A stretch of DNA of 64,000 nt from Bacteroidaceae bacterium (lineage in GTDB: Bacteria > Bacteroidota > Bacteroidia > Bacteroidales > Bacteroidaceae): contig JAFRQD010000011.1 of assembly GCA_017428785.1 (NCBI GenBank), positions 124,001 through 188,000 of the forward strand, written 5' to 3'. This document shows, one piece after another, positions 2,836-60,958 of this stretch; the stretch's first letter is position 1; every line of letters starts with the position of its first letter. Under the pieces are notes generated by a model that had not been told where the DNA came from, ran no database searches, and saw only the letters and a program-made list of their open reading frames with translations. A program made the translations under genes and the position numbers.

Positions 2836-2890
2836 ATGTGTGAAAATGGCCAATTTTACATGTGAGTATTGCAAACTTCATACATTAAGT
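2836..2890. repeat. short 22/24-bp-spaced dyad array (ATGTG type)
   Basis: Between convergent genes, the words ACATGTG, ACATGTGAG and ACATT start at about 2834, 2858 and 2882 (spacing 24 then 22-24 bp), separated by AT-rich TTTTGC-like linkers. This is the weakest and shortest member of the array family described in the findings. Confidence 0.5.
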
Positions 2891-2912
2891 TTAAGCTAGA
2901 ACCCAAAGAAAG

Positions 2913-3108
2913 GAAATAACCAACAGCGGCAGCATGATCATGGGCACGAAGCCCAACACCAAGAAGGAGAACATCTAGGAAACCAAGACCAACGGAACCG
3001 CGCAGGTGCACGAGGTGCTCTCTTTCGACAAGTTCTGTCGCTTGGTAACAACTGACCTCGCCAACATTCAAAAAGTGCTGGTCATGATGCTGCAGGGACT
3101 TTATGAAC
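2913..3108 (+). pseudogene. HU-family DNA-binding protein pseudogene
   Basis: Translating this frame gives NTKKENI, an in-frame TAG (2976-2978), then ETKTNGTAQVHEVLSFDKFC. This matches the N-terminus of the intact HU gene at 32713-33174 (GTKKENIQETKAYGTAQVHEILDLDKFC). The following residues keep only a loose HU character, and the frame runs into the end of the ABC ATPase gene on the other strand, so the DNA-clamp arm and C-terminus are missing. An internal stop plus a 3' truncation make it non-functional. It shows that this genome carried a second HU copy of the same paralogue class. Confidence 0.75.
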
Positions 3109-3801
3109 TTACTCCACAATCCTGCCGTCCTGCATGAATATCTTGCGGTCGGCAAGGTCGGCAAGCTGCTCGTCATGGGTGACGATGACAAAGGTCTGCC
3201 CCATTTTGTCGCGAAGGTCGAAGAAAAGTCGGTGCAGCTCCTCCTTGTTGTGGCTATCGAGCGAGCCGCTGGGTTCGTCGGCAAAGACCACATCGGGCTT
3301 GTTGACAAGTGCTCTGGCTACGGCAACGCGTTGTTTCTCGCCTCCGGAAAGCTCGTTCGGCTTGTGGGAAGCCCTGTCGGAAAGTCCCATGAAGGAAAGA
3401 AGTTCCTCGGCTCGCCGCTTTGCCTCACGCCTTGAAACACCTCCGATGAGGGCTGGCATCATGACATTCTCAAGGGCTGTGAATTCGGGCAGGAGTTGGT
3501 GGAACTGAAAGACGAAGCCCATGTGCTTGTTGCGGAAGGCTGAAATGTCTTTTTTATTGAAAATTGAAGATTGGAATTTGAATTTTGAAGCGTCAATTAT
3601 CCATTTCCCGTCTTCCGTTTCATAGGTGATGCTGCCCTGGTCGGGTTTATCTAAGGTGCCCATTATTTGCAGGAGTGTAGTCTTACCTGCGCCGCTCGGC
3701 CCTACGATGCTAACTATCTTGCCTTGTTCAATGTTGAGGTCGATGCCTTTCAAGACCTCCAGCGCCCCGAAACTCTTCTTGATGCCCCGTATCTCTATCA
3801 T
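3109..3801 (-). CDS. lolD: LolD/MacB-type ABC transporter ATP-binding protein
   Basis: This 230-residue ATPase has Walker [10 protein letters not shown] (34-42), the signature LSGGEKQR (151-158), Walker B FADEP (173-177) and the H-loop THDEQ. The stretch [16 protein letters not shown] is characteristic of the LolD/MacB family, which powers release of lipoproteins from the inner membrane or macrolide/peptide export. No permease partner is next to it, so LolD is the best but not certain name. Its ATG overlaps the stop of the antiporter-protease gene (3798-3801), so the two are co-translated. Residues 74-82 (FKFQSSIFN), between Walker A and the Q-loop, are encoded by a copy of an AT-rich simple repeat seen between genes elsewhere in the window; relatives lack this loop extension. 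Confidence 0.85.
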
Positions 3802-6800
3802 TTCCTTAATTCTTTTCTTCCGTTTATTATGACGATGCCCTTGTAATGGCTGTCCACCCTTTGCCCTGCAAGGTTATAAGCCTCTGACTGCCACACCTCT
3901 TGGCCGATTGCCTTCATGCCGTCTGCATGTTCCATCAAGTATTTAAGCCCCGCTTCGGCATCTATCTCGCCATAGCCATAGTCGTTGGAGGGATATGAGA
4001 GGTCGGGGTTATGGCGACGGCAAGTGAAGGCGAAGGCCTCCATGATTTGCGCTCGTGTCAAGGTGGGGATGGCTTGGAGCCATTGGGCTATGATGCCCGC
4101 CACAATGGGGCACGCCATGCTTGTTCCGCTTTGGCTCGACCATGTATATTCTTGCCCATTGAATACAGAGCGGGCTACATCGTATTCAGTCATGACGCCC
4201 GGGTTATGCTCGGCAAAGAAACTGCTGAAAGCTGCCACGACATTGGTGCCAGGGGCAAGCACATCAGGCTTGACGAGACCGGCCAATGTAGGGCCTCGAC
4301 TGCTATACGGCGCCACATCTCCCCCGCTGCCCCTATTGTAGTTTCTCCATTTGCCATTGAGGTCGCGGTAACCGGTCCTATAGGAAGTGGCACCGACGCA
4401 TATAATGTGTGGATCGGTGGCGGGATAAAGGATATTGTGCGTTGCTACTGCATCCGAATAATCAGGGTACAAATCCTGTTTGCTGAACAATCCTATCTCT
4501 TGGAATGCCTCCACTTCTGCCTCTTCGCCACTCACGCCCACAGCCATCTTTATGGATAGCAGGTTCCCTTTGCTGATTTTGTTGATAACGACATCGGTTA
4601 TAAGTTGTTGGGGGTTGTAGCAACTGGGATAGCTGCCAAAAATAAGCTCGAAGGTAAGTGCGCCCGCGGTAACGGTATCGACGAGCAGACTGTCTTCTGA
4701 GGCAAGGACATCTTCAATCGGCACCTCGTAGTTGAGGTAAGTTTCCGAACTTGATTTCATGAAATCGAGCTTGATGTTGAAGTTGCCTTGGCTGCGAAGC
4801 ATCACATACGTCGTGTTGCCGGAAGGCGAAATAAGCGTCGCTACTCGCTCTTTTCCTACGGGCTTATGCATGTAGGTAAGGTGGTTGCTCTGATTGCCCG
4901 CCGCCGTGCAGATGATGCGTCCGGGGCGAACCAGGCTGTCAAGAACGGCGCTATAGAGTTGCGCCTCGCCCCAAAGGTCTTCATGTGAGCCTTCGCTAAA
5001 ACTGATGACACACGGCTTGTCCACTTCATCTGCATAACGGAAGATGTACTCGAAACCGAGCAGATCGATGGCGGAACCATAGAGTTCCCAAAGCGAATCG
5101 GGAACCAGCGGCTTATCATCGGAAACGGCATTGTTGACGAGACATATATCAGCATCGGGCGCCATTCCTATATAAGGCGTGTCATAGCCGCTTCCCGCTG
5201 CCGTGGTGGAGGTGTGCGTGCCATGAAATTGCATGTGACCATCCGACGAACGAGCTTTTTCCAAAATGCTCTCTTGAGTCGTAAAGGCCTTACCGACAGG
5301 AAGCTCCATGCCATAAACCGTCTGATGTTCCTCATCCGCGGTCTCTTGTTCATCGAAATCAAGCATGTCCCAAAAAGATTGGACACGATAAGCGCTGAGG
5401 TCACGAGAATAGTATGAAGGATGCGTAAGGTCGAAACCAATGTCCATCACGCCTACGACAACGCCTTTACCGGTCAAGGCCGGACGCTCTGCCGTGGGAT
5501 AACGCAGGAGGTCGGAACGCGTAATGATGGCCGATGTATCGGTTTGGGCTTCACAAACCCTGCCACATTCAATTCTCTTGACTTCTGACCGAAGAGAAAG
5601 AGCGGCAAGTTCCCTTTTCGGTACGCTGACGGCATAGATGTCCCCCCAATGTGAATGGATACGGCAACCGTGCTCGAGGAGTACTTCTTCGCTGGAGGAT
5701 TGTACAAGCGTAAGAAAAAGTTCTCCACTTTCTCCTTCACGAGAATGCGCTCTTTTAACCTTCCCTCGGGAATCGTCGGTCGGCAAAGAATAAGGTTTGC
5801 AAGGGGTCTGAATTTGCTTCAACACCTCTTGCCTAACCATTGGCGACATCTTATCAAACCGAGGCCTTTGGGCTTCGACAAGGAAAGGAAGCATAAGAGC
5901 CAACAGAACCAAAGCCGAGCGCTTTGCCGTAAAGAACCATCGGCGAATCAAACCGCCAAGAGAACGGGGTTGCCGCTGTACTGCGGTGCCATTAGGTGTA
6001 AAGACCGAGATGCTTTCTTGCGGCTCTCCCCATTGGTCGGGAAACAGGATCATGACACTCGTCCCACTGAAATAGCGATGGACAAGCAAAGGAAGTTCCT
6101 CGAAACTATCTTGATAAGAGATGAAACCAGGCCTCGCTGTGACCGCTATCAGCATGCAGCTCAAGTCCAGTTCATTCTGCAAATTCAGGAACTTCATCCA
6201 TCGGTTCATCTCGACATAATGGGACCGGACATGATTGTGCTTCTGCTCCATATATCCTTTTATATAAGGTAATGTATCTGCATGTGCGTGATATTCGAGA
6301 TGACAATCAAGCTCTTCGCCTATCCTGCAAATATGTTCCAACCATTTATAGAAGCCGACTTCATATTCAGCCTTCTGGGGAATGACGATGACAACACGCC
6401 TGATAGTTCCAGGAGGCACGATGCTCCGAACCGCCATTACTTCTCTGTGGCTGCCGCTCACCACATTATCTATCACACTTCCCAGCGAAGATTTGGCCTC
6501 TCCCGTCGTCCTGTCGTTCAGGCAAACAATAACCTCGCCACAATCATACTCGTTCATCGTATGCAAGATACCGCCTGCAATGTTCGTGCTCATGCGGTTA
6601 AGCGTAGCCATAGGCACATCGGCAGCTGCTGCTATCATCTGAGCTTTCTCGAGCATCCTGCGTCCCTGCTGACGACTTTCCACACTTTCCTTGCTGTCTC
6701 CATCGTATGAGACACACAAACCCATCAGGCTATCGGGTATGAAAGGATTGCGAATCAAGATGGCGAGCTGAGTCATCACATCAACATTATCTTCCCGACT

Positions 6801-8069
6801 GTATGTAATCAGGCATTTCCCATGATAGGAACCTCTGTTGTCTTCGAGCGCTGTGTCGCTCAAAGCAAGCTGTTTTGCCCCTCTGTTCGTAGCAAAACCA
6901 CTGATGAGACAACTGAAGAAGATGAGCATAACGGTACCGCCAAGCACTTCGTCGTTCATGAGATTGACGCCTGGAGCAGTTCCGATGGTTACGATTGCGA
7001 GGGCTCCGGCCGCATGTGCATTGGTGAGGCCAAACATCAACCACATACTGTTCCTGCCCTCTCCCATCGTCCAAGCCATGATGGCCGAGGAAATAAACTT
7101 GGAGAGCGTTCCCGTCACAACCATAACCGTCACCAGCCAAAGCGCTTCAGGATGGCGAACAAGAATGCTCGGGTCGATAATCATACCTACGCCTATCAGG
7201 AAGTATGGAATGAAGAGCGCATTGCCCACAAACTCGAGGCGAGACATCAACGGGCTTGTCTTGGGAATGAGACGGTTAACTATCAATCCTGCAAGGAAAG
7301 CTCCAAGCAGTCCCTCAAGCCCTACCATCTTCGCCAAAGACGCACTAAGGAAGACAAGAGCAAGGATGAAAATGAACTGCATGACACCGTCTTCGTACCT
7401 TCGAAGAAACCAACGTCCCACTCTTGGAAACACCAGAATGGCAAAGGTCACATATATCGCACACTTCAAGCCAAAGAGGAGCCAAGTCATCCAGGATGTG
7501 TCGGGATTCTGCCCGCCTACCACAATCGCCAAGACAAGCAAGGCGGCAAAGAGAGCAATGGCCGTTGCAACCACACTCACGACTACCGCCCTGTGCCTGT
7601 TTAGACCATAACGTCCTATAATAGGATACGTTACGAGGGTATGACTGGCATAGATGCAAGCCAAGAGAAGACTGGTGGAAAGGCCGAAACCTAATAGCCA
7701 GACACTTGACATGATACCCAAGAAGAAGGGAATGGCAAAGGTCAGAAGACCGAAACGAAATCCTGCCCGACCAAACCTTTCCACGCTTCCCATCTCCAAC
7801 TCCAAGCCGGCAAGGAACATGATGTAGTAGATGCCCACCTGTCCGAAGAGTTCAAACGAGCGGTCGTGCGCGAGAAGATTGAAACCATATTGCCCAACGA
7901 AGACACCCGCAAGGATAAGTCCGATGATTGGGGGCACGCGAAGTTGCCTCAGCAGCAAAGGTGCAAACAAAATGATGGCGAGCACCACAAAGAAAATCCA
8001 TGTAGGGTCGGTGATGAGAGCCGTAGTTGGAGCGGCTTGAAGAGCACAGAAAAGCATCATTTGTTGCAC
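3798..8069 (-). CDS. fusion: CPA2 cation/proton antiporter with C-terminal subtilisin-like (S8) protease
   Basis: One uninterrupted 1423-codon frame. Residues 1-400 form a CPA2/Kef-type antiporter with about 12 membrane segments. Residues 400-700 resemble two UspA-like cytoplasmic domains usual in Bacteroidetes antiporters. Around residue 711 a new signal-peptide-like segment appears (basic RRWFFTAKR, then [15 protein letters not shown]). It is followed by a full S8 protease with the Asp motif [11 protein letters not shown] (about 870), the His motif HGTHT (about 951) and the Ser motif GTSMACP (about 1316), then the secreted-protein tail YNLAGQR...[10 protein letters not shown]. Each half has the usual length of a separate protein. 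No in-frame ATG precedes the internal signal segment; a TTG three codons before W711 could start the protease separately. If made as one chain, the internal segment would carry the protease to the periplasm. A stop-codon-loss fusion is the simplest reading; an assembly error cannot be excluded. Confidence 0.85.
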
Positions 8070-8089
8070 TTTAAGTATATAAATCGGGG

Positions 8090-8097
8090 CAAAGTTA
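8090..8097 (-). promoter_or_regulatory. -7 box of the antiporter-protease/lolD transcript
   Basis: On the minus strand this reads TAACTTTG, a match to the Bacteroidetes -7 consensus TAnnTTTG, about 20 bp before the start codon at 8069. Confidence 0.6.
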
Positions 8098-8199
8098 AGA
8101 AAAAAACTTCATAGTTCATCGCTCATGGTTCATATTTTTGCAGAAACGCCCACATAGGGAGCTCAAACTGAAACATAAAGGGGTGTTTGCAAACGCAAC

Positions 8200-8372
8200 A
8201 TGAGTGGTTTTCAAACATCACACGAGTAATTCGCAAACTTCACACGAGGATTTGGCAAAATCCACACGTGAATTTCGCAAACTTCACACGAGGATTTTTC
8301 GGTTTAGACGAGTCTATTTGGAAAAACAGGCACATCTAATTGAGCAAACAGGCACGCCTATTTGGGCCGCGG
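8200..8372. repeat. 22-bp-spaced dyad array (ACACGAG/ACACGTG type, then GGCACGCC type)
   Basis: The core words ATGAG, ACGAG, ACGAG, ACGTG, ACGAG begin at 8200, 8222, 8244, 8266 and 8288: exactly 22 bp apart. One more follows at 8308 (20 bp). Linkers are AT-rich (TTTGCAAAA-like). The array then changes word: CAGGCAC starts at 8327 and 8349, again 22 bp apart, with the flanks TCTAATT/CCTATTT. It lies between two divergent promoters. Confidence 0.8.
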
Positions 8373-8451
8373 ACTATTTGACCTTAATCAAAATCACACT
8401 CGATAAACAATATTTTTTCATTTTTCATTTCTCTTTTCTCATTTCTTGTCG

Positions 8452-8459
8452 TATCTTTG
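8452..8459 (+). promoter_or_regulatory. -7 box of asd
   Basis: TATCTTTG, followed by GCAG; a strong Bacteroidetes -7 element. The leader to ATG 8509 consists of the short repeat TTAATTCTTAACTCTTAA. Confidence 0.7.
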
Positions 8460-8508
8460 CAGCGTGATTTAAAACTTAATTCTTAACTCTTAATTCTTAA
8501 TTATAAAG

Positions 8509-9519
8509 ATGCGAGTTGCAATAGTTGGCGCAAGTGGTGCCGTCGGGCAGGAGTTCCTGCGAGTACTTGACGAGAGAAAATTCCCCATCGATGAACTGTT
8601 ATTGTTTGGAAGTCAGCGTAGTGCGGGACGAAAATACACCTTCCGAGGTAAGGAGATCGAAGTGAAGCTCCTTCAGCATAACGACGACTTCAAGGGCGTA
8701 GATATTGCCTTCACAAGTGCAGGAGGCGGCACAAGCAAGGAGTTTGCCGAGACCATCACGAAGCACGGAGCTGTGATGATTGACAATTCCAGCGCTTTCC
8801 GAATGGACGAAGATGTGCCTCTCGTAGTGCCCGAATGCAATGCCGAAGACGCTCTCAACCGTCCTCGTGGCATCATAGCAAACCCCAATTGCACGACTAT
8901 CATGATGGTCGTTGCCCTTCAGGCCCTCGAAAACCTGTCTCATATCAAGCGTGTGCATGTTGCTTCATATCAGGCAGCCAGCGGAGCAGGCGCAGCTGCA
9001 ATGGCCGAGCTCTACGAACAATATCGCCAAGTACTTGCTGGCGAGAAGCCCACAGTCGAGAAGTTCGCCTATCAGCTGGCATTCAATGTGATTCCTCAGA
9101 TTGACGTTTTCTGCGATAACGGTTACACAAAAGAGGAGATGAAGATGTATAACGAGACCAAGAAGATCATGCATACCGACTGCGAAGTAAGTGCGATGTG
9201 TGTCCGCGTGCCCAGTCTCCGTTGCCACAGCGAAAGCGTTTGGGCAGAGACAGAGCGTCCCGTCAGCGTAGAAGAGTTTCAGCAGGCCGTCAAAGAAGGA
9301 AAGGGGCTTCAGCTCGAAGACGAACCTCAGAACAAGAAATATCCCATGCCTCTCTTCCATGAGAACTGCGATGACGTCTTTGTAGGCCGCGTTCGCAAAG
9401 ACCTCGCAAACCCCAATGGCATCACATTCTGGCTCGTTAGCGACCAGATAAAGAAGGGTGCCGCCCTCAACGCAGTACAGATTGCAGAATACCTGATTGA
9501 GGTAGGCAACATCAAATAA
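8509..9519 (+). CDS. asd: aspartate-semialdehyde dehydrogenase
   Basis: This 336-residue enzyme reduces aspartyl phosphate to aspartate semialdehyde, the branch point to lysine/diaminopimelate, threonine and methionine. It has the N-terminal NADP-binding GASGAVGQE motif (residues 7-15), the catalytic-Cys motif NPNCTT (about 128-133) and the conserved C-terminal region [20 protein letters not shown]. Length is normal for the family. It has its own promoter and a strong terminator, so it is probably monocistronic. Confidence 0.97.
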
Positions 9520-9552
9520 AGTCAACCGAGAAGACTACATTCTCACTTTATA

Positions 9553-9595
9553 CCCCCTTTACGCATTCATGGAAATGCCGTAAAGGGGCTTTTTG
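9553..9595 (+). terminator. rho-independent terminator of asd
   Basis: The stem arms CCCCTTTACGCATT and AATGCCGTAAAGGGG surround a short loop and are followed by CTTTTTG. It lies about 34 bp after the asd stop. Confidence 0.85.
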
Positions 9596-9670
9596 TTTTC
9601 AACCAACCATTATTTTTCAAAATTTATGAAAATAATTGTTGTTTTTCTTGCCATATAATAAAATAATGTA

Positions 9671-9678
9671 TAACTTTG
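9671..9678 (+). promoter_or_regulatory. -7 box of the 1454-residue secreted protein gene
   Basis: TAACTTTG with TTG at 9648-9650, a 20-bp spacer, fitting the Bacteroidetes -33/-7 pattern. The leader to ATG 9728 is about 45 bp. Confidence 0.7.
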
Positions 9679-9727
9679 GGGCAGAATATGTATAATTAAC
9701 CCAATTTATTAACTAAAATCAACAAGT

Positions 9728-12700
9728 ATGAAGAAACATTTATTAATTCTCGCATCGCTTGTGTTGGGTATCGGACAGCTATTTGCTGATACTTACACAT
9801 TCGAAGTCGCGAACCTGAAGGCTTCACTGCCTGCAGACAACTCAAAAATCAACCTTCCATACACATGGAAAGTTTCTGAAGTTCCCGTGACAGTGACTCT
9901 CGCCAAGGCTGATGGCTCAACAGGAACGATGAATGTAACCAGTTCTGTGACTCTCGCAAAGAATTACACAGTTACTGTATCTGTTCCTGGTGAAGGAACA
10001 ATTGACCATGTAAGAATCACAGCAGATGATCTTACTGCGTTCACTGCAACGTCTCCTACGACAGGCACTTGCACCACTACGACCACTACTTTCAGATGGA
10101 ATCCTGCTGAAGGTGAAAGTGTGTCGTCCGTAGTCTTCACAACTACCAGTTCCGCTGATGTAACAAAGATTCGTGTTGACTACACTCCCGACGAGAATTA
10201 CATTCCCGATGTACCCGTCGCAGAACCTCTCTTAGGCCCGTTCGAGGCAACAGCTATTGATGCCATCGGCTCCTACACAGGCACAGATCCCTATGTCTAC
10301 GACAAGACTTCAAAGAAGTATTATGCCCTCAACAACCTGGGCGAATACGAAGAGTTCGGTCTCTATCCCGAAGTCAGCACCCTGAAGGTTGCCGGCGGCA
10401 GCGCAACTCAGATTGAGTACATTGCCACCGTGGAAGCCAACGGCACATCCGATGTCCCCTACATCAACACAAACTACATTCCTAAGGCCAACACAAGGAT
10501 TGTCATGGATGTTGACATTGCCGAATCATCCGCAAAGAACTGGATGGCAGTGTTCGGCGCACGTCAAGGTGGATGGACCAGCCATGCATTTGTGCTTTTC
10601 GCACGCACTGGCAAAGACAATGGCTACAACAAGGGATGCTACAATCGTACTGGCGATGAGCATGTAGGTACTACGGAAATTCCTCGCGACCAACGTATGA
10701 TTATCGATGCATTCGAGAACACAGTGACATTCTCTGTCAACGAAACAGAAGCAGCAAGGATTGAAGCAAATGGCACCGTTGAAGACTGCACCAACAATCT
10801 GTACCTCTTCGACACGAACACAGGCGGAGCAGGTGGGAATCAGCGCGACAACTCCTATATGTTCATGAAGCTTTACGGCTGTAAGATTTATGAAGGCGAT
10901 GCTCTTGTAAGAGACTTCGTGCCCATCGTAACTGCAGAAGGCAAAGGTGGACTTAAGGACAAGGTTACCGGCGAAATCGCACTGTCTGCATCCAACAATG
11001 ACTTTGTACTGAGCCCTGACGGCCAGTCTATTGCAAGCCAAGCAGGCATTTCTGTATATCCCGGCAAGTTCGTCATCAATACCAACGACAACCACGAGTA
11101 CAACTGGAACGGCACAGATTGGGTTGACCTCGGCTTAGTCACTCTCGCACCCATTTCTGACACAAACTATCAGAACATGAACAACTGGACTTGCCGCTGG
11201 GGATATGAAGAGACTTACGGCCACATCGTTAATGATGGCAACAACAACTTCTTCAACCCGTACAATGGCAAAGGCGACTGGGAACCCTACCAGTGCAAGA
11301 TTGAAGGTCTGAATCAGGGTGACAACTATCGCGTCTCCTTCGACTTCACATCCAATGGCTGGAACTCTTGGAGCTCATATACACAGCTTCCCTTCTTCGT
11401 AACCAACAACTGGGACTTCGCCCGTGGCCTTGTTCCTAACGGCGTAGGAGGCGAAGTGCTTGGCTTCGTTGGGCTCACCAACAGCGCAGTGGAAAACCAG
11501 CCCTATTCGTTCAACTTCATAGCCGACGGCACTTCTGCAACAGTTGCCATTCAGTTCGGCGTAGGCGATGACAACAAGGACTTCTTCTTCCACTTCGATA
11601 ATCTTTTGATTGAAAACTACACCTATCCCCAGAAGTATTCTATCGACGTGGCCTTAGAGCCTACTACCGCCGACAATGTCGAGGTTTGGGACGGCACAAG
11701 CGACGCCATCTTGGGTTCTATCCGCATCGGCGGTAACCAGTACAAAGCCGCTTACACCATGACATTCGACTCCGGCCATGGCTTTGGCGATTGGAACACA
11801 AGCAACCCCAACTACAACGTTATCGCTGGCGTACCCGCTAACGACAATAACGGCAAGGCTTGGTACGAGACAGACTATGTAATGATTAACAGCAAGACCG
11901 AGAGCTGGATCTACGGCAGCAACGTATTGCCCAACAGCTGGCCCGAGAATCCCGGCGATGTTTACGTTCGCCGCTACTTCAAGGCTGAAGGCGAACTGCC
12001 TGCACAGCTCTACATGCCCGCAGCTCACGACGATGCTCCCTGCGAATACTACATCAACGGTACACTCGTTTGGGCACGCAACGGTTTCGAACCTGGCGTA
12101 AATGGCTGGTATGAAGATGAAATCGTTAAGCTCAACGCAGAGCAGCGCGCTCTCATCAAGACCGACGGCTCTGTCAATGTCTTTGCTTACCATGTTCACC
12201 AGAACTGGGGCGGTCGTTATGCTGACGGCGGTATCTATGGCAACAGTATGGCCGACGGCTCTCCCAGCGCAAGATTCGAAAACAATGAGACCCGCGCTCG
12301 CCTCGAAGTTGCTATTGCACAGACAGAAGGCGTTGAAGGCATCGACCCCGAAGTTCTCGAGTATGCACAGAATGCAACAGTTTGTCTGCAGGATGCAGGT
12401 CGTGCTCTTAACCTCATACGCTATGAGCTCCGCAAGGCTCTCTCTCCGCGTCACGACTATAGCTTCGATTCTGCTGAACCTGCCGATGGCCTGGAGTGCT
12501 GGCTCTACAACGTAGGTGCCGGACAGTTCCTCGCTGGCGGCAACGACTGGGGCACTCACGCTTCTCTCGACTACAACATCAGCGCATGGCCAATGGTTCT
12601 GCTTGCTAACAGCAGCGGCGAGAACCGCTTCTCTATCAAGACCAACCTGCCTCACGGCCTCCGTTCAAGCCATGACGGTCTCGGTCACAATGGCTACGTT

Positions 12701-14092: not shown

Positions 14093-14111
14093 CAGCCCCT
14101 CTATTCCCTCC

Positions 14112-14187
14112 GTTGCGACTGGGTAGTCACTCCCCTCTATGGGGTCACAATGAAAGAAAGGCATTGTGCCAGACCCCCAGTCGCAAC
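14112..14187. other. nested inverted repeat after the large secreted protein gene
   Basis: GTTGCGACTGGG (14112-14123) is perfectly complementary to CCCAGTCGCAAC (14176-14187). Inside lies a second pair, CACAATG (14146-14152) and CATTGTG (14162-14168). There is no T-run, so it is not a classical terminator. It could be an mRNA 3'-stabilising structure or a relic of a palindromic mobile element. A further short hairpin (CCTCCCC...GGGGGAGG) follows near 14258-14276. Confidence 0.65.
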
Positions 14188-14295
14188 CCAGGGGGAAACA
14201 AGAGTGTAATATAATTAAACATCAGATTATCAACAATTGACCCAACCCCTCATCAGTCACCTCCCCTATGGGGGAGGATGGGAGGAGTCCAGACA

Positions 14296-14451
14296 ATGAA
14301 ATACATAGCACCATCAATTAAGATCGAAGAGGCTCAGGCAGTTCAGATGCTTGCCGAGAGTCTGCCTATCATCAGCGGCACAACCGTTAGTGGAGACAAG
14401 GCATTGACTAAAGAAGACGATGCTTGGGACATTTGGGGCGACGGAGAATAA
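14296..14451 (+). CDS. small acidic peptide (51 residues), function unknown
   Basis: A 51-codon frame starting MKYIAPSIKIEEAQ and ending DDAWDIWGDGE, then TAA. A GGAGGAG lies upstream of the ATG. The pattern (basic start, a central SLPIISGTTV stretch and an acidic Trp-containing end) resembles short peptides common in Prevotella-like genomes, which have no known role as far as I know. There is no signal peptide or Cys. It is downstream of the large secreted protein gene and followed by a GC-rich repeat array. It could be a leader-type peptide or a small regulator; I cannot assign a function. Confidence 0.55.
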   Translation: MKYIAPSIKIEEAQAVQMLAESLPIISGTTVSGDKALTKEDDAWDIWGDGE

Positions 14452-14564
14452 GCTTCTTGCCCACCCCATTGTCTGACTTACAGAACAAGAGGAATCCCCG
14501 ATTCGCAAATGCGTTTCGGGGATTCTTCGTTACAGGTCTTTTCTTCCCTCATGGAGGGACTGAA

Positions 14565-14650
14565 AACGCCGGCTGCGGCGATGGCCAACGCCGCACGCGG
14601 AAATGGGCAACGCCGCAGCCGGGGATTGCAATCGCCGCAGGCGGCGTTTT
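14565..14650. repeat. 22-bp GC-rich dyad array (CGCCGCAxGCGG type)
   Basis: Four units start AACGCC, AACGCC, AACGCC, ATCGCC at 14565, 14587, 14609 and 14631, exactly 22 bp apart. The first unit is the approximate reverse complement of the last (GCCGGCTGCGGCGAT against ATCGCCGCAGGCGGC), so the whole array can fold as one large hairpin ending in TTTTTT. It abuts the stop codon of the phosphoesterase gene at 14651. Confidence 0.85.
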
Positions 14651-16006
14651 TTACCCTCGTATGTTGCTGAAAGTCACGGTGCCGCAGACACCTCCGGAAT
14701 AGATGTTATGAATGGTTACTACAAGTTTGCCATCCTTCACCTCTCCGTCTATCACGGTCGGGAAATGCCCGGCGTTCTTGCCAGTCATGTTAGGTCCGCC
14801 GCCAACAATCTGCAGCCACTTGTGCTCATTATTCGGCGTATCGATACGATAGACATGCTGATGAGCAGTAATCAGAAGCTGGCAACCAGCCTCCTCGAGC
14901 AGCGGTCCCCATAGCTTGGAACAAGTCCGCTGCCATTCCGCAAAGTCGCCTTTGTGCTTATCGTCCACATCTGCAGGGAAAAGATCGCCTGGATTGACAT
15001 CTTGGCGAGGGTCGTAGAGAGGGATATGACAGAAGGCTACAAGGTACGGAGCGCTCGCTATCTCTGGTTGTTTGAGAGCGTCCCGAAGCCAAGTCTGCTG
15101 CGCGACACGATAAGGTTCGCTGACGAAGAGGTTGCAGAACCTTGGGTTAGAGTCCAACTTATCCTCGCCTGTATCGAGCCCCACAAGTGCGATGTCGCCC
15201 ATCCTGACTGCAAAGTTGCGGCCCAAGTCCCAGTCGCGAGGCTTACGTTCCTCTGGCTGACGATACATCCAAATACGCTCCAGATGGCGATTTGCCAATC
15301 CACGGCAGTCGTGATTGCCAGGACAGAAGAGGTACGGGATGTTGGCTGCGAAGTCTTTCCGGTCAATCTCAGGCTTGAAGAAGATGCGTTTCTGAGCCGC
15401 AATCGTCTCTTCCGAATTGCAGGCATCGCCGTTCCAGATAACACAGCTCGGCTGCAGCTCCATCACCTTATTGATGGTTGGATTGACGGCTTTCCACGAG
15501 GCGTGGGTGTCGTTGATGACGCAGAAATGTCCTCTTGCCCTTTCACCAGCAGTTCGGAAGGAGTAGATGTTGGGCTTCTCCTCATTGCCCGTGATGCGGA
15601 TATGGTAGCCATCCTTGTACTCGATGCGGTCGGCTCCTATCTTATAATAATATAATGAATAGGGTTTCAGGCCGGTCAGACGGACGTGAATTGCTTCGTT
15701 GTCCATCCCCGAGACACGATATCCGCCACACCACACCTTCTTGCCGTCGCTCAGGTCGGGTTTCTCGCCATAGATTACATAACCGTTCGCCCAGTCTGTC
15801 ACACTGAAGGCAATGCCCATACTGGTAGCCGCATAGTTCTGCAGAACAGGCTCGCTGTCGATGAGATGCCCTCCTCCATCTCCCCCAGAGGGTGAAGAGG
15901 CCGTTTCGCCGGCTAAAGGATTCGTTGGGTCTGCCATTACATTCGTGGCAAAACCACTTGTTGCAGCCACAAGGGCAGCATTGCGAAGGAACTCTCGTCT
16001 TTTCAT
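14651..16006 (-). CDS. exported metallophosphoesterase with N-terminal fibronectin-like domain
   Basis: The 451-residue protein starts with a Tat-like signal (RREFLRNAALVAATSGFA). After a linker comes a fibronectin/purple-acid-phosphatase-type domain (about 50-150), then a calcineurin-like phosphoesterase with the metal motifs NDTH, NGD, GNHD, a CHIPL His, and TAHQH in place of the usual GHxH. The family hydrolyses phosphomonoesters or nucleotides; the substrate is unknown. The linker ASSPSGGDGGGH is encoded by a small GC-rich palindrome-like insert (15864-15900) of the kind seen in other genes here. It is transcribed divergently from the hexuronate operon; a link to that operon is not implied by sequence. 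Confidence 0.9.
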   Translation of the reverse strand: MKRREFLRNAALVAATSGFATNVMADPTNPLAGETASSPSGGDGGGHLIDSEPVLQNYAATSMGIAFSVTDWANGYVIYGEKPDLSDGKKVWCGGYRVSGMDNEAIHVRLTGLKPYSLYYYKIGADRIEYKDGYHIRITGNEEKPNIYSFRTAGERARGHFCVINDTHASWKAVNPTINKVMELQPSCVIWNGDACNSEETIAAQKRIFFKPEIDRKDFAANIPYLFCPGNHDCRGLANRHLERIWMYRQPEERKPRDWDLGRNFAVRMGDIALVGLDTGEDKLDSNPRFCNLFVSEPYRVAQQTWLRDALKQPEIASAPYLVAFCHIPLYDPRQDVNPGDLFPADVDDKHKGDFAEWQRTCSKLWGPLLEEAGCQLLITAHQHVYRIDTPNNEHKWLQIVGGGPNMTGKNAGHFPTVIDGEVKDGKLVVTIHNIYSGGVCGTVTFSNIRG

Positions 16007-16095
16007 ATCTTTACATTTTGACTACGGACAACTGACTACCGACAACTGCATGTTATACGTTGTCTGTTGTCTGTATTTGTTTGACTTTTACGCTA

Positions 16096-16248: not shown

Positions 16249-16277
16249 CACGAAGAAACTACAATGCACGATGAATT

Positions 16278-21252: not shown

Positions 21253-21321
21253 GACAACGAAACATGCTGAAACAGTCATCTCAGCAGGGCTCGTTGCCAA
21301 ACTTGGCAGGGAGCCTTCGTT

Positions 21322-21387
21322 GATTTGTCATGATGCAGCAATTGAATTATCATGATGCAGCAATTGATTTGTCATGATAAATCAATG
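21322..21387. repeat. 22-bp dyad array (GTCATGATG type)
   Basis: Three units of 22 bp start at 21322, 21344 and 21366. Units 1 and 2 differ at only a few positions near their 5' ends, and unit 3 has diverged in its second half. Each is centred on a TCATGA dyad. The array sits between the uxaC stop and its terminator. Confidence 0.85.
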
Positions 21388-21392
21388 AACTT

Positions 21393-21425
21393 AACGTGCG
21401 ATGTTTGACGACATCGCACGTTTTG
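21393..21425 (+). terminator. rho-independent terminator of the hexuronate operon
   Basis: The perfect arms AACGTGCGATG and CATCGCACGTT enclose an 8-base loop and run into TTTTG. Confidence 0.9.
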
Positions 21426-25479: not shown

Positions 25480-25708
25480 GCATCTTTTATCATCCCTGTT
25501 TTGTCAAAACTTTTTACAGGCAAGCGTCTTCTAAGGGCTTGTTTTTGCTTTTGTGGCACTTTTCTACCCCAGACACAAAATAAGGCCTTAAATCGAGTTT
25601 CTCCCTTCGGCAGGCAGTTTCCGAAGACACATTTTCTAACAGAAAGCAAAGAAAGTACAAGCACGGCACACAGAATCATCAAACAAAGCATGCTTTTCCG
25701 CCAAATTC

Positions 25709-25805
25709 CGCGTGTGGCGATAGTCAACTTCGCACGGGGAAATTGCAAACATCGCGTGCGGCGTTTGCAATTATCGCGTGCGGCGTTTGGAATCATCCCA
25801 CGCCA
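25709..25805. repeat. 22-bp dyad array (CGCGTGCGGCG type)
   Basis: Words CGCGTG, CGCACG, CGCGTG, CGCGTG, CCCACG start at 25709, 25731, 25753, 25775 and 25797: exactly 22 bp apart. The linkers (GTTTGCAATTAT-like) are those of the AT-rich arrays, so this array joins the AT-rich and GC-rich types. It lies between convergent pmbA and cdd. The preceding 230 bp (25480-25708) hold nothing I recognise. Confidence 0.85.
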
Positions 25806-25867
25806 TGTTTGAAAAAACCGCGTTTTTCGACCTGATTTTTGTCCTGATTTTTTACAAGACTTAGCAG

Positions 25868-29716: not shown

Positions 29717-29719
29717 TAT

Positions 29720-32621: not shown

Positions 32622-32665
32622 GAATTAGACATGTCTAAGTCGCGAATTAGGCACGCCTACCCAGA
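32622..32665. repeat. two-unit 22-bp dyad array in the HU leader (TTAGACATGTCTAA type)
   Basis: Units start GAATTAG at 32622 and 32644 (22 bp). The first contains the perfect 14-bp palindrome TTAGACATGTCTAA; the second holds the near-palindrome TTAGGCACGCCTAC. The same words occur in the second half of the array at 8308-8365. Confidence 0.75.
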
Positions 32666-42095: not shown

Positions 42096-42146
42096 GAATT
42101 AACCGTTCAGCACTCCGTCAAAACACGCCCTGAGAGGGGGTTAAAA

Positions 42147-42234
42147 ACGCCGCGTGCGGCGATGTCCAACGCCGCACGCGGGGATTGCCATCGCCGCAGC
42201 CGGGGATTGCCATCGCCGCAGCCGGCGTTTTCAT
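42147..42234. repeat. 22-bp GC-rich dyad array (CGCCGCAxGCGG type)
   Basis: Units start AACGCC, AACGCC, ATCGCC, ATCGCC at 42147, 42169, 42191 and 42213, exactly 22 bp apart. As in the 14565 array, the first unit is the near reverse complement of the last, ending GCCGGCGTTTTC. It lies directly downstream of the orphan tail at 42239. Confidence 0.85.
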
Positions 42235-46763: not shown

Positions 46764-46854
46764 ATTAAATAATGAATACAGACAAAGACTGACAAGCAGA
46801 AAAAACAATAAAAGCATGAAATTCGGCGATTTAGCTCTCATTGCAAAAGAAGAC

Positions 46855-46945
46855 ACGTGATGTTAGCAAACATCACACGTGAATTTTACGATTTTCACAT
46901 GTGAATTTTGCAATTTTCACACGTGGATTTTGCCAACGACACGAG
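46855..46945. repeat. 22-bp dyad array (CACACGTG type)
   Basis: ACGTG, ACGTG, ATGTG, ACGTG start at 46855, 46877, 46899 and 46921 (22 bp each), then ACGAG at 46941 (20 bp). The linkers read AATTTTGCAATTTTC. It lies between the GH127 stop (46958) and the surface-protein promoter. Confidence 0.85.
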
Positions 46946-46957
46946 TATCTTTTTTAA

Positions 46958-53638: not shown

Positions 53639-53645
53639 TTATTTA

Positions 53646-53745
53646 ATTGAAGATTGAAAATTGAAAATTGAATATAAAGAAGTCCTCTGATTGAAGATTG
53701 AAAATTGAAAATTGAATATAAAGAAGTCCTCTAATTGAAGATTGA
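53646..53745. repeat. 44-bp tandem duplication of an AT-rich repeat
   Basis: A 44-bp unit starting ATTGAAGATTGAAAATTGAA and ending AAGAAGTCCTCT begins at 53646 and again at 53690, with one visible difference (G/A at the end), followed by a partial third copy. 44 is twice 22, perhaps by chance. Confidence 0.85.
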
Positions 53746-53755
53746 AGATTCAGAA

Positions 53756-55192
53756 TTAAGAGTTGATGGATGCTGCGATGTCTTCTGGCGAGACGAGTTT
53801 CTGCTCGCCGCTTGTCATGTTCTTGAGCATCACCTTTCCTGCCTGCATTTCTGTCTCGCCGGTCATGACGACGAAGGGAATGCCTTTCTGGTTGGCATAC
53901 TGCATCTGCTTCTTCATCTTGCTGGCATCGGGATAGATTTCACAACGGATGCCTTGTCCGCGAAGCTGTGAGATGATGGGAAGCGAATAGTCGGTTTCCT
54001 TCTCGCCAAAGTTGATGAAGAGCACCTGAGTAGCCGTCGTGACTGCTTCCGGGTAAAGGTTCAGCTGATTGAGGACGTCGTAGATGCGGTCCGCACCAAA
54101 GCTAATCCCCACTCCGCTCAGGCCGGGCATACCGAAGATGCCAGTCAAGTTGTCATAGCGACCGCCTCCCGTGATGCTTCCTATCTCGACATCCAGGGCT
54201 TTCACCTCGAAGATGCAGCCCGTATAATAGTTGAGACCGCGTGCAAGCGTCAGGTCGAGTTCAAGATTAGGGGCAAGGGGCGAGGGGCACGGGGCAAGAG
54301 GATTGCTTGGGCTGGATGTATTCTCTTGCTCCTTGCTCCTTGCTCCTTTAAACTTGTTCAGCACATATTCCACCTCGTCTATGCCTTTCTGTCCGACCTC
54401 GCTGCCAGCCAAGACCTCGCGCATCGTCAGTATCTTCTCCTCGTTCGTGCCGCTGAGGTTGATGATGGGCTGCAGCTTCTGAATGGCTTCTTCGCTGATA
54501 CCGTCCTCGCGAAGCTCTTCGTTCACGGCATCGAGACCTATCTTGTCGAGCTTGTCGATGGCAACGGTGATATCCACTATCTTGTCGGCCTCGCCAATCA
54601 TCTCTGCTATGCCTGAGAGAATCTTGCGGTTGTTTATCTTGATGCAAACGCGGATTCCGAAACGACGGAACACCTCATCGACAATCTGCATCAGTTCCAC
54701 TTCGCAGAGCAGCGAGTCGCTTCCCACCACATCGGCATCACATTGATAGAACTCGCGATAACGTCCTTTCTGAGGTCTGTCGGCTCGCCAAACGGGTTGA
54801 ATCTGATAACGACGGAAAGGCAAAGCCAGTTCCTCACGATGCTGCACGACATAACGGGCGAAGGGAACAGTCAAGTCGTATCTGAGACCCTTTTCGCAGA
54901 GTTGGGCAGCAAGGTGGCCTGTAGCGCCATTTGCAAGGTCTTCGGTAGAGATGCCACGCAGGAAGTCGCCGCTGTTCAGTATCTTGAAGAGCAGTTTGTC
55001 GCCTTCTTCGCCGTACTTGCCCATCAGGGTTGAGAGGTTCTCCATCGCAGGTGTCTCGATTTGCTCGAAGCCATAGAGGGAATAGACCTCGCGAATCGTG
55101 TTGAAGATGTAGTTACGCCGTGACATTTCCTGCGGACCGAAGTCACGAGTTCCTTTTGGTATGCTTGGTTTTTGCGCCATATTATTTGACAT
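53756..55192 (-). CDS. hisS: histidyl-tRNA synthetase with repeat-derived insert
   Basis: The class II synthetase (478 residues from ATG 55192; 474 from ATG 55180, [10 protein letters not shown], which is also plausible) has motif 1-3 regions and the histidine-specific [14 protein letters not shown]. Bases 54268-54348 code [25 protein letters not shown], placed between the insertion domain (YVLNKFKG) and [10 protein letters not shown]. This stretch is made of GGGGCAAGGGGCGAGG and CTTGCTCCTTGCTCC repeats and is absent from normal HisRS. It lies on a surface-exposed connection, so activity is probably kept. Confidence 0.95.
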
Positions 55193-55254: not shown

Positions 55255-55477
55255 CGAAGAATAATTGAAAAATAAGAAAAAGAGCCAAGTTTTTTGCAAA
55301 AAAACATGTTTCTTGTGTGTCTGGATGAAACAACAAATCGATTTGGCAAAAGAAAAATCAATAATGCGGACACATGAGAAAAGCGACGAAACGAAAGCCG
55401 AAATCGCGAAAAAATCTTTACATAATTTGGGGACAATTCTTGAGATTATGGGACACACAGCACAATGAAAGATGAAA

Positions 55478-55570
55478 CGTAACATGTGAAGTTTGCAAAC
55501 ATCACACGTGAAGTTTGTAAACACGACACGTGAAGTTCACCGATTCCACACGTGGAATTTGGTCCAAAAA
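55478..55570. repeat. 22-bp dyad array (CACACGTGAAGTTTG type)
   Basis: ATGTG, ACGTG, ACGTG, ACGTG start at 55484, 55506, 55528 and 55550, exactly 22 bp apart; the units share CACGTGAAGTTTG. It lies between the divergent hisS and coiled-coil promoters. The rest of 55255-55834 shows no gene or structure I can support. Confidence 0.88.
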
Positions 55571-55862: not shown

Positions 55863-58595
55863 ATGATCTTCTTCAACAAAAAGAATAATAAAGACAACGT
55901 ACAGCAGACGACAGACGACAGTCAACAGGTTGTCAGCCAACAGACTGTTAGTCAAGTTCCGGTTTCTGCTGATGGCGGCATCAACTTCATCTTAGAAGAC
56001 ATTGAGTCCAGCACGCATCCGAAGCGCAATCCTCACATCCTGAACTCCACGCAACTGCAGCGCGTCAAGGATGCCAAGCGGTTGGCAGAGACAAAGTTGC
56101 AGGGCTTGGAAGAGAGTCTCGGCAGGCTCCAATCTCAAAGGCAATGGCTGCGTCGCTTCAACGAAACAAAGATGGTGCTGGACCGCGAAAAGAAACATCT
56201 CTTCGAACTCGGCAAGCAGAAGGCCATCTTGCAGAAAGACGCAAGCATGTTGGAGCGCTACGACCTCTTTGAAGGCATTCATGGCACCTATCAGAAACTC
56301 ATGGTGCTGAGGGAACAAATCAGCCAGGAGAAGCGAGGTCTCTCTCTCTTAGAACGCGAAGCCGACGAGAACCGACAGAAGCTTACAGACCAGGAAAAGC
56401 GTCAGCAGCAAGCCAACGAGCAACTGAAGAATGCCAAGACCAGTATGACAAGCATCTTCGACCATGTTTGCTCTGCCTATCAACTGACTGGGGCGAATGC
56501 TTCCCTTGAAACAGAAACAGCTTTCCTGATTGACTATAATAATAAGGTAAAGGACGAAATGGAGGCGCTCTCTACTCTGATTGCAGAGAAAGAGAAGACT
56601 ACTGCGATACTACAAAGCAACGTTGAGCAGCTCAGAACGAAGCGGCAAAGCATGGAGATTCATGAAAACATGCTGAGACACGGGGAAGCCGTCCTGCTGC
56701 AACTCAAACATCTGGAAGACAGAGACAAGCGCAGGACTGAGCTTCAGCAGAAATGTCAGCAGTCCATCAAGCGGCAGAATGAAGAGAACGAGTTGCTGGG
56801 CAAAGCCTTTGGCAAGTTCCAAGATCTCGTTTCACAGATAGAATCGGCTGAAGCGGAACTGAGCATACACCGCTCTTACATTCAGGGACAAGACGGCCTC
56901 ATGCTTCAGGAACGAGCTTTGATGCTGAAAGGTCGCAGGCAAATGCTTCACTCTGCCCTTTCTTTGTGGAGGCGCATCAGCACGGGCTACGAGAGCATCG
57001 AAGAGAAGAGTAAGAAAGTGACTGCGCTTCGCCTGAACATCCAACACCTCGAGGCCGGCGTCCGCGAACTTGAAGAAGAGACGGGAAAGGCGCAAAGACT
57101 CTGCAAGGAGAAGGAATATACCTACCTTTTGAGTAAAGGCCAGGACATCATTCAGCTGCGAGCAGACCTGAGGGAAGGCGTCAGCTGCTCTGTTTGCGGA
57201 GCCACTCATCACCCCTATCACAGCGATACAATCCTCGACCAAAGCAAGCTCATCGGTCAGATGAAAACCGATTATGAGCTTTTGGCTTCGGAAGCAAACG
57301 CCAAACAGCAGCAACTTTCAGAGATGAAGGCAGAGTTGGCTATGGCTCAAGGCAGCCTCAACGCTGAAGAAGAAGCGCTAAACACCATCCGCATCCGTCA
57401 GAACGAAGATGTAATAGAATGGAAACTCTACGCCCAACTCGACCCAACATTTGTGGAATGTTCTGAAAGCACGAACCTCGACGCAAGAACTGCTTTGATA
57501 CGGCAGTTCATAGAGAATGTCAGTCGCGACGCAGAAATGGCAGAGAAAGAACTGGAGACCTTTACTTTCCACCAAAGCAGCATCGCCAAGATTAGTGAAG
57601 AACTCCAGAAGCTCGAACAGAAGAAGAGCGAAGTGAACACGCAGCTAAGCGAACTAAACACCGGTTGCCAAGTGCTAAGCAGAGAGGTCGACCATATCGG
57701 CCAGCGCCTTGAAAGCGTCAACAAGCAGTTTACCCGCATCTACGAAAGCATGATGCAAGCCGTCACTTTCAAGGATTGGTACTCAGTATGGCAGAAGGCT
57801 CCAGAACAACTCTATGAGCAGATACAGAAACTCATCACGGATTGGTTCAACGTGGAGCATGAGATTATGGACAAGCAAGCTATTCTCGATGCCGAGAAAG
57901 CAAAGCTGGAAGGCATGAAGACGCTGCATCAGTCGCTTGCCCGCTCTTCGTCCGTCATCGCAAAGGAGATAAAAGAATTGCAAGGCCGCAAGGCTGAGAA
58001 CATAAAAGCCTATCAGCAAATAATTCCGGAAAGAGATGCAAAGAGCTATTATGAGAAGCATTTGCAGGCACTCAATTCAGCAAGAGAGCGTTTCGAAGAA
58101 GAGCACAATCAGATGGATAGCATTCGCCACAATGCCGATATCATACAGGGTCGGCACGACTACTATCTGGCTCACATCGAGAAGCTGGAAGGAGAACAAA
58201 AGCAATACAACGAGAAGCTCGACCTCTGGATGCATGCCTTCAACCTGCAACATCCGCCTGTTCAGCAAAGCGAACTTGACGAGGTTTTTGCCGACGGAAA
58301 GAATTGGAGCAAGATTCGAAGCAGCTTAAAACAGATAAACAGAGAAACGCTGCTCTGCCAAGCTAAAGTAGAAGACCTGAATAGCCGCATTATTGCTCTC
58401 GACACAGAAGACGGACATTGCAACACCTCGACGCCCGACATTCAGGAAAGCATCACGGCTAAGCAACAAGCGCTCACAAAACAAAGGAACGACACAATGA
58501 TGCAGATTGCCCGACTTACCGTTCAGCTCGAGGAACATGAAAAGGCTCTTGCTGCCGAACGCAACTCTGCCGAGCCGGAAACGCATCTTGCATAA
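55863..58595 (+). CDS. SbcC/Rad50-type zinc-hook coiled-coil protein without ATPase heads
   Basis: This 910-residue protein is almost all heptad-type coiled coil (about 70-420 and 470-890). At the exact middle is GVSCSVCGATHHPY (Cys 442 and Cys 445), which matches the SbcC hook (PCPLCGSTSHP type) in sequence and position. SbcC/Rad50 proteins dimerise through this hook, but they also need an N-terminal Walker A and C-terminal signature/Walker B. Neither is present: residues 1-60 are a short polar region (partly a GACGACAGACGACAG repeat, QQTTDDSQQ), and the C-terminus ends in helix and a polar tail. No frameshift or flanking head-coding sequence was found. It may be a hook-linked structural or scaffold protein. 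Function unknown. Confidence 0.85.
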   Translation: MIFFNKKNNKDNVQQTTDDSQQVVSQQTVSQVPVSADGGINFILEDIESSTHPKRNPHILNSTQLQRVKDAKRLAETKLQGLEESLGRLQSQRQWLRRFNETKMVLDREKKHLFELGKQKAILQKDASMLERYDLFEGIHGTYQKLMVLREQISQEKRGLSLLEREADENRQKLTDQEKRQQQANEQLKNAKTSMTSIFDHVCSAYQLTGANASLETETAFLIDYNNKVKDEMEALSTLIAEKEKTTAILQSNVEQLRTKRQSMEIHENMLRHGEAVLLQLKHLEDRDKRRTELQQKCQQSIKRQNEENELLGKAFGKFQDLVSQIESAEAELSIHRSYIQGQDGLMLQERALMLKGRRQMLHSALSLWRRISTGYESIEEKSKKVTALRLNIQHLEAGVRELEEETGKAQRLCKEKEYTYLLSKGQDIIQLRADLREGVSCSVCGATHHPYHSDTILDQSKLIGQMKTDYELLASEANAKQQQLSEMKAELAMAQGSLNAEEEALNTIRIRQNEDVIEWKLYAQLDPTFVECSESTNLDARTALIRQFIENVSRDAEMAEKELETFTFHQSSIAKISEELQKLEQKKSEVNTQLSELNTGCQVLSREVDHIGQRLESVNKQFTRIYESMMQAVTFKDWYSVWQKAPEQLYEQIQKLITDWFNVEHEIMDKQAILDAEKAKLEGMKTLHQSLARSSSVIAKEIKELQGRKAENIKAYQQIIPERDAKSYYEKHLQALNSARERFEEEHNQMDSIRHNADIIQGRHDYYLAHIEKLEGEQKQYNEKLDLWMHAFNLQHPPVQQSELDEVFADGKNWSKIRSSLKQINRETLLCQAKVEDLNSRIIALDTEDGHCNTSTPDIQESITAKQQALTKQRNDTMMQIARLTVQLEEHEKALAAERNSAEPETHLA

Positions 58596-58654
58596 ATAGT
58601 CTTAATAAAGTATAAACTCTAAACACTAAACTCTCAACTCTCAACTATTTTTCG

Positions 58655-58662
58655 TACCTTTG
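58655..58662 (+). promoter_or_regulatory. -7 box of the BSP-queC-queF transcript
   Basis: TACCTTTG, followed by CACCC. The leader to ATG 58709 carries the common CTTAATTCTTAACTCTTAAC repeat. Confidence 0.65.
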
Positions 58663-58708
58663 CACCCGATTAAACTCATAACTCTTAATTCTTAACTCTT
58701 AACTAAAT

Positions 58709-60664: not shown

Positions 60665-60715
60665 AAGATAAGGCGGCAGCCGCTCAATGTAGCGTGACTG
60701 CCGCCTTATCTTCTT
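60665..60715 (+). terminator. rho-independent terminator of queC-queF
   Basis: The perfect 15-bp arms AAGATAAGGCGGCAG (60665-60679) and CTGCCGCCTTATCTT (60698-60712). Confidence 0.88.
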
Positions 60716-60740
60716 ATTATCTTATTTTCCTAATTACTTA

Positions 60741-60836
60741 TTATCTCATTATCTTCTTGCCGTCCTTGATGTTGATGCCTCGTTGCATCTTATTCAAGCG
60801 TTGGCCTGAAACATTATAAATAGCTCCCGCGCCTTT
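60741..60836 (-). pseudogene. orphan secreted-protein tail
   Basis: The minus strand encodes AIYNVSGQRLNKMQRGINIK and DGKKIMR, then TAA: a full copy of the tail carried by six secreted proteins in this window. No open frame extends upstream; a 22-bp dyad array begins within about 15 bp. It looks like the last trace of a deleted secreted-protein gene. Confidence 0.75.
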
Positions 60837-60849
60837 GCCAGAAAATTAC

Positions 60850-60958
60850 ATGAGGCTTACTCATGGCACACGAGATGTCGGCGAAATCCACACGAGGATT
60901 TGATGAAATCCACACGTGAACTTTGGGAAATCCACACGTGGATTTTGCAAAGGTCTCG
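60850..60958. repeat. 22-bp dyad array (CACACGAGG/CACACGTG type)
   Basis: ATGAG, ACGAG, ACGAG, ACGTG, ACGTG start at 60850, 60870, 60892, 60914 and 60936 (20, then 22 bp each), with the linkers GATGAAATC and TTTGGGAAATC. A degraded TCTCG word ends it. It lies between the orphan tail and the DPP IV stop. Confidence 0.85.

Follow-up and report, generated by a model that had tools for sequence, protein, structure and literature searches.

Here we report that the gaps between genes of a Bacteroidaceae bacterium contain dispersed arrays of imperfect palindromic units, most often set 22 bp apart. They were noticed in a single stretch of 64,000 nucleotides, hereafter the window (contig JAFRQD010000011.1 of assembly GCA_017428785.1, positions 124,001 to 188,000; C2:124001-188000 in our numbering), and the original prediction that their period is constant and their sequence variable holds both genome-wide and across Bacteroidales. 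The host genome, G000, is a metagenome-assembled genome (MAG) of 2.98 Mb in 71 contigs, with an estimated completeness of about 84%; its closest relatives, compared by asd protein, come from rumen and gut and are likewise MAGs, of uncultured Bacteroidales. Judged from the DNA sequence, the chances are about even that these arrays are helically phased rows of sites for a predicted cooperative chromosome protein.

The 22-bp period in the window, the genome and the order

In the 10.2 kb of noncoding window DNA (24 segments), autocorrelation is 0.302 for lag 22, 0.296 for lag 44 and 0.292 for lag 66, compared with about 0.26, and lags 9 and 21 are likewise raised (0.289 and 0.287); coding DNA is flat at lags 22 and 44 and rises slightly at 66, a multiple of three. 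Segments were scored by lag and passed at a score of 17, with microsatellite-like segments (period of 12 or less) and those lying mostly within long open reading frames (ORFs) excluded from the counts. Nine lag-22 segments of the window reach this threshold and cover eight of the ten loci first named as arrays, while the other two, at 2836 and 32622, are plausible as arrays if not significant alone (Table 1). A lag-22 segment at 29718 is a heptamer microsatellite and was excluded.

In the window and 17 further stretches of the host genome (347 kb together), 33 intergenic segments pass at lag 22, 12 at lag 21 and one at lag 23, whereas dinucleotide shuffling of the same gaps (20 rounds) gave none at lags 20 to 24, so that the lag-22 excess is genome-wide, as had been expected. 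A pooled sample of 144 stretches (2.64 Mb: G000, 18 same-genus genomes, G150, 80 asd loci and 20 stretches of other Bacteroidales; sampling is uneven, the asd loci being the best 80 of at least 584) yields 126 segments at lag 22, 26 at lag 21 and 8 at lag 23, with 0-4 at each other lag from 16 to 30. Lag-22 arrays, usually of 3-8 units, are present at 28 of the 80 asd loci and in 9 of the 18 same-genus stretches; G150 has 22 in the 160 kb sampled, Phocaeicola vulgatus ATCC 8482 two in 120 kb, with one array at L338:17521-17603, Parabacteroides gordonii four in 100 kb and Bacteroides ilei one in 100 kb. Array density is about one per 10 kb in the host genome, one per 7 kb in G150 and one per 25 kb across the 18 same-genus stretches. 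Among the controls, other families within the order (316 kb) gave one segment at lag 22 and seven at lag 21, other orders of the class (253 kb) gave one lag-22 array, similar in look, and neither other classes of the phylum (120 kb) nor E. coli (100 kb) gave any.

Twenty-two is the modal period, and dyad arrays of period 21 and 23 exist too, including clear odd-length palindromes in other genomes (L033, L030). A copying mechanism that keeps one fixed length, offered earlier as a possible origin, matches this spread poorly, as periods of 21 and 23 occur and those of 19 and 24 do not. A spacing of 21-23 bp with a mode of 22, or about 11 bp per turn, fits what cooperative dimers on one face of the helix would select.

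The 12 lag-21 segments of the host genome (L100:4001-4092, L103:16147-16224 and L112:14830-14902 among them) mostly belong to one separate dispersed palindromic family, ACGCARSTTGCGT plus 8 bp; an interpretation of them as multiples of 7 bp was dropped once the 12 had been read.

Unit families, element C and the dyad register

Each locus had been thought to carry a unit of its own; units in fact group into families within each genome, and loci share them. Family A of the host genome (CACACGWG alternating with TTTGCAAA) recurs in several window arrays, the GC-rich family B (CGCCGCACGCGG alternating with ATTGCCAT) in two, and family C at 34 loci of the genome, including 21322 in the window; further families exist. 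A and B can be fitted by eye to a single frame, AAC-N3-(GC or AC)-NN-(GC or GT)-N3-GTT-N4, and therefore have dyads every 11 bp. In the host genome the junction pattern GCNNNGTTNNNNAACNNNGC is present 47 times against once for its control; the corresponding counts in relatives are 43/1 (G091), 39/3 (G185), 36/9 (G122), 23/3 (G150) and 20/4 (G106), and in most of 121 genomes of the genus the pattern is close to control level. The half-site consensus of the G000 clade is AACNNNGC. Words in other genomes include CGCACCACGCTGCG (L035), ACACGTACGTGT (L037) and TTAGAGGTACGTCTAA (L058 and L354, of one genome).

Pooling around element C brings out strongly the dyad symmetry claimed for the units, and the register of the dyads is retained where the unit word changes. 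Taken singly, only part of the arrays are significantly symmetric: a consensus test at p<=0.05 passes 39 of 97, compared with 10 of 55 controls of other periods (all ten with a period of 21 or 23), and a per-unit test passes 34 of 97, with 5 of 33 among arrays of the host genome.

Element C is marked by the 18-mer TCATGATGCAGCAATTGA, which at two mismatches or fewer matches the host genome 71 times, at 34 places, whereas its reversed control gives no match. It comprises three 22-bp units, TTGATTTATCATGATGCAGCAA, the third often more symmetric. Three units are found at 32 of the 34 loci (one with a variant first unit), two at one locus and four at another, and mean pairwise identity of the core between loci is 0.91. 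At 20 C loci from 12 other genomes, a script counted three units at 18 loci, six at a locus of G106 and a single unit in G185, where by eye two more diverged units follow. The letters of C are species-specific, as in the perfect palindrome TTGCTGCATCATGATGCAGCAA of G018, and the 18-mer, at the same tolerance, matches in 44 of the 121 genus genomes, many with only one or two matches.

In the host genome the C core is flanked by frame units of differing sequence, and its 5-bp GTTCR/YGAAC borders are part of the neighbouring unit frame. We scored palindromicity over positions 2-7 at 30 loci as a function of distance from the centre of C. From a mean of 0.25 (standard deviations 0.07 and 0.06) it rises to 0.656 upstream and 0.578 downstream at 22 bp, and the strongest offsets are all multiples of 11 (upstream 22, 33, 55, 77 and 66; downstream 22, 33, 55 and 66). 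Among offsets 15-32, the best dyad lies at exactly 22 for 23.9 of 29 loci on the upstream side and for 21.5 of 29 on the downstream side, with ties split and L324 dropped for its variant unit. The window array at 8174-8367 likewise changes its word in register: by eye, its two lag-22 segments (8174-8297 and 8313-8367) form a single array with a mid-way change, and dyad centres fall near 8288.5, 8310.5, 8332.5 and 8354.5.

Within the C-flanking units, the most informative positions are +-2,3 and +-7-9, and +-1 and +-4-6 carry little information, a pattern of two-part half-sites compatible with the earlier suggestion that the unit is the site of a dimeric protein. Covariation between halves was not detected in the upstream flanking unit (163/232 paired against a permuted mean of 160.9, p 0.35) or in units 44 bp from C (p 0.88 and 0.93). 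No covariation was seen in the host genome for an outer stem around C (p 0.97 at k 1-22, p 0.048 at k 45-66); the 20 C loci of other genomes gave p 0.02 at k 12-22 and p 0.09 at k 1-22. The combination of two-part half-sites with at most weak base-pair covariation would favour dimer half-sites in DNA over RNA hairpins.

Explanations for the arrays

In the explanation we prefer, one or several related DNA-binding proteins would occupy the array as dimers spaced by two helical turns, all on the same side of the DNA and each touching its neighbours. The step from one dyad centre to the next (22 bp, with 21 or 23 as occasional variants, each half-site taking about 11 bp) would be kept because it sets both helical phase and neighbour contact, and the letters would drift with the specificity of the protein, staying alike within one genome. 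The protein and its cooperative binding are inferred, as is a role of nucleoid type or in insulating gaps, in preference to control of a regulon. A regulon under C is unsupported by the 20 adjoining genes scanned of about 60, among which no common function was seen; one encodes an HU-HIG protein. It is possible, if on balance doubtful, that selection keeps geometry and not letters in a stronger sense, with the arrays as platforms on which a fast-evolving chromosome protein would form filaments, its specificity changing in step with scores to hundreds of sites in each genome, a logic resembling that of centromere satellites or PRDM9 sites.

Several observations weigh against protein sites of this kind. 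Most single arrays are without a significant dyad (58 of 97 fail the consensus test and 63 of 97 the per-unit test), and arrays are gained and lost rapidly among close relatives, a behaviour seldom expected of an essential site. At 44 bp from C the signal (0.344 upstream, 0.294 downstream) is below those at 33 and 55, and the downstream flanking unit has a slight excess of complementary changes (149 against 139.8 expected, p 0.036). The flanking units also share a consensus, and part of the register may therefore reflect common descent; their likeness between loci (66% and 57% at 22 bp, 39-42% at 44 bp), compared with 91% for the C core, suggests that descent would hardly be its whole cause.

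The arrays may instead be selfish or mobile palindromic minisatellites, of the BrickBuilt type or the type of repetitive extragenic palindromes (REPs) and bacterial interspersed mosaic elements (BIMEs), which a transposase or recombination would have spread and homogenised, with a spacing that comes from the mobilising enzyme and no role for the host. We consider this unlikely, yet it accords with the dispersal of families within one genome, the 34 near-identical C loci, the species-specific versions of C and the quick turnover at orthologous gaps. Among 14 relatives read at the asd gap, the three nearest (L001, L002 and L003) have arrays in gaps of 314-439 bp, as had been predicted, though in other words, L001 and L003 sharing one type and L002 and the window (gap of 439 bp) another, and no array is present in L008, L011-L015 and L020, where the gap measures 102-183 bp. 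At the DPP IV gap, lag-22 segments are present in L206, L211, L213 and L214 and absent from L207, L209, L210 and L212. Mobility finds less agreement in the period common to unrelated families, and in the A and B arrays, around which no constant ends, leader or tail were seen by eye. Dispersal by a REP-associated Y1 (RAYT-type) transposase was rejected: PF01797 was found in 4 of 13 array-bearing genomes (several of them incomplete MAGs; other transposase families were not searched), and the complete P. vulgatus ATCC 8482 is without it. The sole Y1 transposase found in the host genome, at L296 (G000:C56:71986-72324), is adjoined by other, REP-like palindromes, GCCCTGAAAGGGC and CCCAGGGCGTTGCCCTGGG, unrelated to the 22-bp units. 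Protein sites and selfish spread are compatible, as a repeat may spread by recruiting a host protein.

We regard as improbable a third explanation, in which the arrays act at the RNA level as tandem hairpins, either bidirectional terminators or protectors of mRNA 3' ends. Gap types, counted with a hexamer-based gene caller that missed queC and the gene at 21530-22630, bear on this in both directions (Fisher p values are uncorrected). The 30 placed non-C arrays of the host genome, one edge array having been dropped, divide into 13 convergent, 12 tandem and 5 divergent, and their convergent share exceeds the baseline of 115 gaps of at least 100 bp (23 convergent, 68 tandem, 24 divergent; p 0.016). 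Family B is placed in five convergent, five tandem and no divergent gaps, with one array at an edge; its array at 14552-14667 has a terminator-like hairpin and a T run at each end, one per strand, and clusters of hairpins can terminate transcription (PMC8355165). Element C, in contrast, is enriched in divergent gaps (13/31, p 0.021; 32 of 34 loci taken, with 15 tandem, 3 convergent and 1 edge), and five non-C arrays, all A-type and spread over four gaps, are divergent as well. Arrays thus occur in all three kinds of gap, and termination alone is therefore insufficient, as was argued from the start. An earlier gap count based on longest ORFs showed no bias, with arrays in 6/28 divergent, 8/24 convergent and 11/52 tandem gaps.

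Further observations weigh against terminators. The pattern seen at 14552-14667 is not general, given the arrays in divergent gaps and a terminator scan of window positions 1-20000 that found no overall excess (19 against 19.5 expected). Family B (A4 in 5/11 arrays, T4 in 6/11) is not distinguished from family A (A4 in 11/20, T4 in 7/20) by runs at the array ends. Sense-strand mismatches in 39 tandem-gap arrays (G-T 232, A-C 208) are no more skewed than plus-strand mismatches in convergent (144/126) or divergent gaps (110/97), with directions taken from longest ORFs and partly wrong. The halves covary little, and nothing in termination calls for a constant step of 22 bp. In the DPP IV gap, L207 and L208 have a plain terminator-like hairpin, and L212 (degenerate units) and L214 carry, by eye, a separate one beside the units.

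Neutral tandem duplication, by which slippage or error-prone copying would yield functionless repeats of 21-23 bp, accommodates the exactly repeated units of some arrays (L002, L411) and the turnover at orthologous gaps, and is nonetheless very improbable given a register that survives change of the unit word, conservation within units that depends on phase, the three units kept by 32 of the 34 C loci of the host genome, and the absence of arrays from the 100 kb of E. coli and their rarity in other orders.

Known repeats, the window loci and what the arrays may mean

In iterons, ParR/parC and similar operator arrays, a protein binds cooperatively along one side of the helix to tandem sites spaced by one or two turns. 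The present arrays resemble them in having symmetric half-sites at fixed helical phase; iterons and ParR/parC are single loci of one sequence, unlike the many chromosomal loci and many sequences seen here. CRISPR was rejected, as the repeats run head to tail without unique spacers (cas genes were not searched). No Rfam family matched the window at its gathering score. With REPs and BIMEs (PMC3733652) the arrays share short, high-copy intergenic palindromes, mosaic clusters and genome-specific words. REPs are 20-40 bp long with a tagged end and are not known to have a fixed two-turn step.

The nearest precedent is in Porphyromonas gingivalis, where tandem repeats of 22, 23 and 41 nt are reported for strain W83 (PMC4596501). 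According to the same paper, BrickBuilt occupies 19 dispersed intergenic loci with imperfect 22-23-nt tandem repeats, up to 22.8 of them, for which its authors predicted stem loops from dyad symmetry; it has a single, species-specific sequence that includes a leader, a tail and terminal inverted repeats, and was interpreted as a miniature inverted-repeat transposable element (MITE). As so described, BrickBuilt is like the present arrays in belonging to the same order and in its dispersed intergenic 22-23-nt tandem repeats with dyads, and is set apart from them by their many sequences, usually 3-8 units and register across words; no leader or tail was seen by eye around their A and B families. 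The original prediction, which knew of no description, has to be qualified for the 22- and 23-nt repeats in print for P. gingivalis; in the literature searched on Bacteroidetes and Porphyromonas repeats, with most subscription papers outside the search, we found no description of an order-wide class or of a preserved dyad register.

Loci of the window are collected in Table 1, with adjoining genes named by Pfam. The caller's convergent label for the gap at 21278 was wrong because of the genes it had missed; by Pfam the gap is tandem.

Table 1. Arrays, element C and two-unit candidates in the window
Feature	Position	Strand	Units	Gap or neighbours	Remarks
Two-unit candidate	2839..2882		ACATGTG words		Score 9.75, below threshold 17
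Array of about nine units, one 22-bp register	8174..8367		Family A, then words TTAGACGAGTCTA, CAGGCACGCCTA	Divergent gap upstream of asd
GC-rich family B array	14552..14667		CGCCGCANGCGG	Convergent gap
Element C with flanking units	21278..21398			Tandem gap, uxaC / thioredoxin-family gene
Element C core	21320..21385	+	Three 22-bp units		18-mer match G000:C2:145328 = window 21328; 1 of 34 loci in G000
Array, units intermediate between A and B	25704..25814		CGCGTGCG/TTTGCAAT	Convergent gap, tldD-like / cytidine deaminase
Two-unit candidate	32622..32659		TTAGACATGTCTAA / TTAGGCACGCCTA	Upstream of HU-HIG gene	Score 10.75, below threshold 17
Family B array	42121..42232			Convergent gap after sodium:solute symporter gene
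Family A array	46846..46953			Tandem gap, two minus-strand genes
Family A array	55475..55559			Divergent gap, hisS / 55863-58595
Family A array	60867..60951			Convergent gap 3' of DPP IV gene

The window also contains many 7-bp microsatellites with differing unit letters (8414-8446, 8475-8502, 29720-29828, 33456-33576, 53644-53757, 58613-58704 and others), a second class of repeat with constant period and changing letters. In the asd gap these heptamers often lie, by eye, just upstream of a promoter-like TAnnTTTG site. Heptamer repeats also occur (54269-54298, 54325-54348) in the insert-bearing coding stretch of hisS (53756-55192, minus strand), whose product HisRS has, at about residues 267-317, an insert missing from most relatives, with residues that also match unrelated proteins in G000, G013 and G091. 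The TldD/PmbA-type gene adjoining the array at 25704 has an in-frame TAA in four of the relatives listed (L267, L268, L269, L272), and positions 3798-8069 form a single ORF of 1423 aa with a sodium/hydrogen exchanger domain and a subtilase domain, which may be a fusion or an assembly error.

Bacteroidales dominate the mammalian gut, and to our knowledge their nucleoid proteins and intergenic architecture are poorly known. At the densities found in the host genome and in G150, the arrays would therefore be a sizeable unannotated feature of these genomes. They would allow a clean test of whether a bacterial protein can select spacing while sequence drifts, could serve as bait for finding the protein that binds them, and would place the 22/23-nt repeats of P. 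gingivalis in a wider frame.

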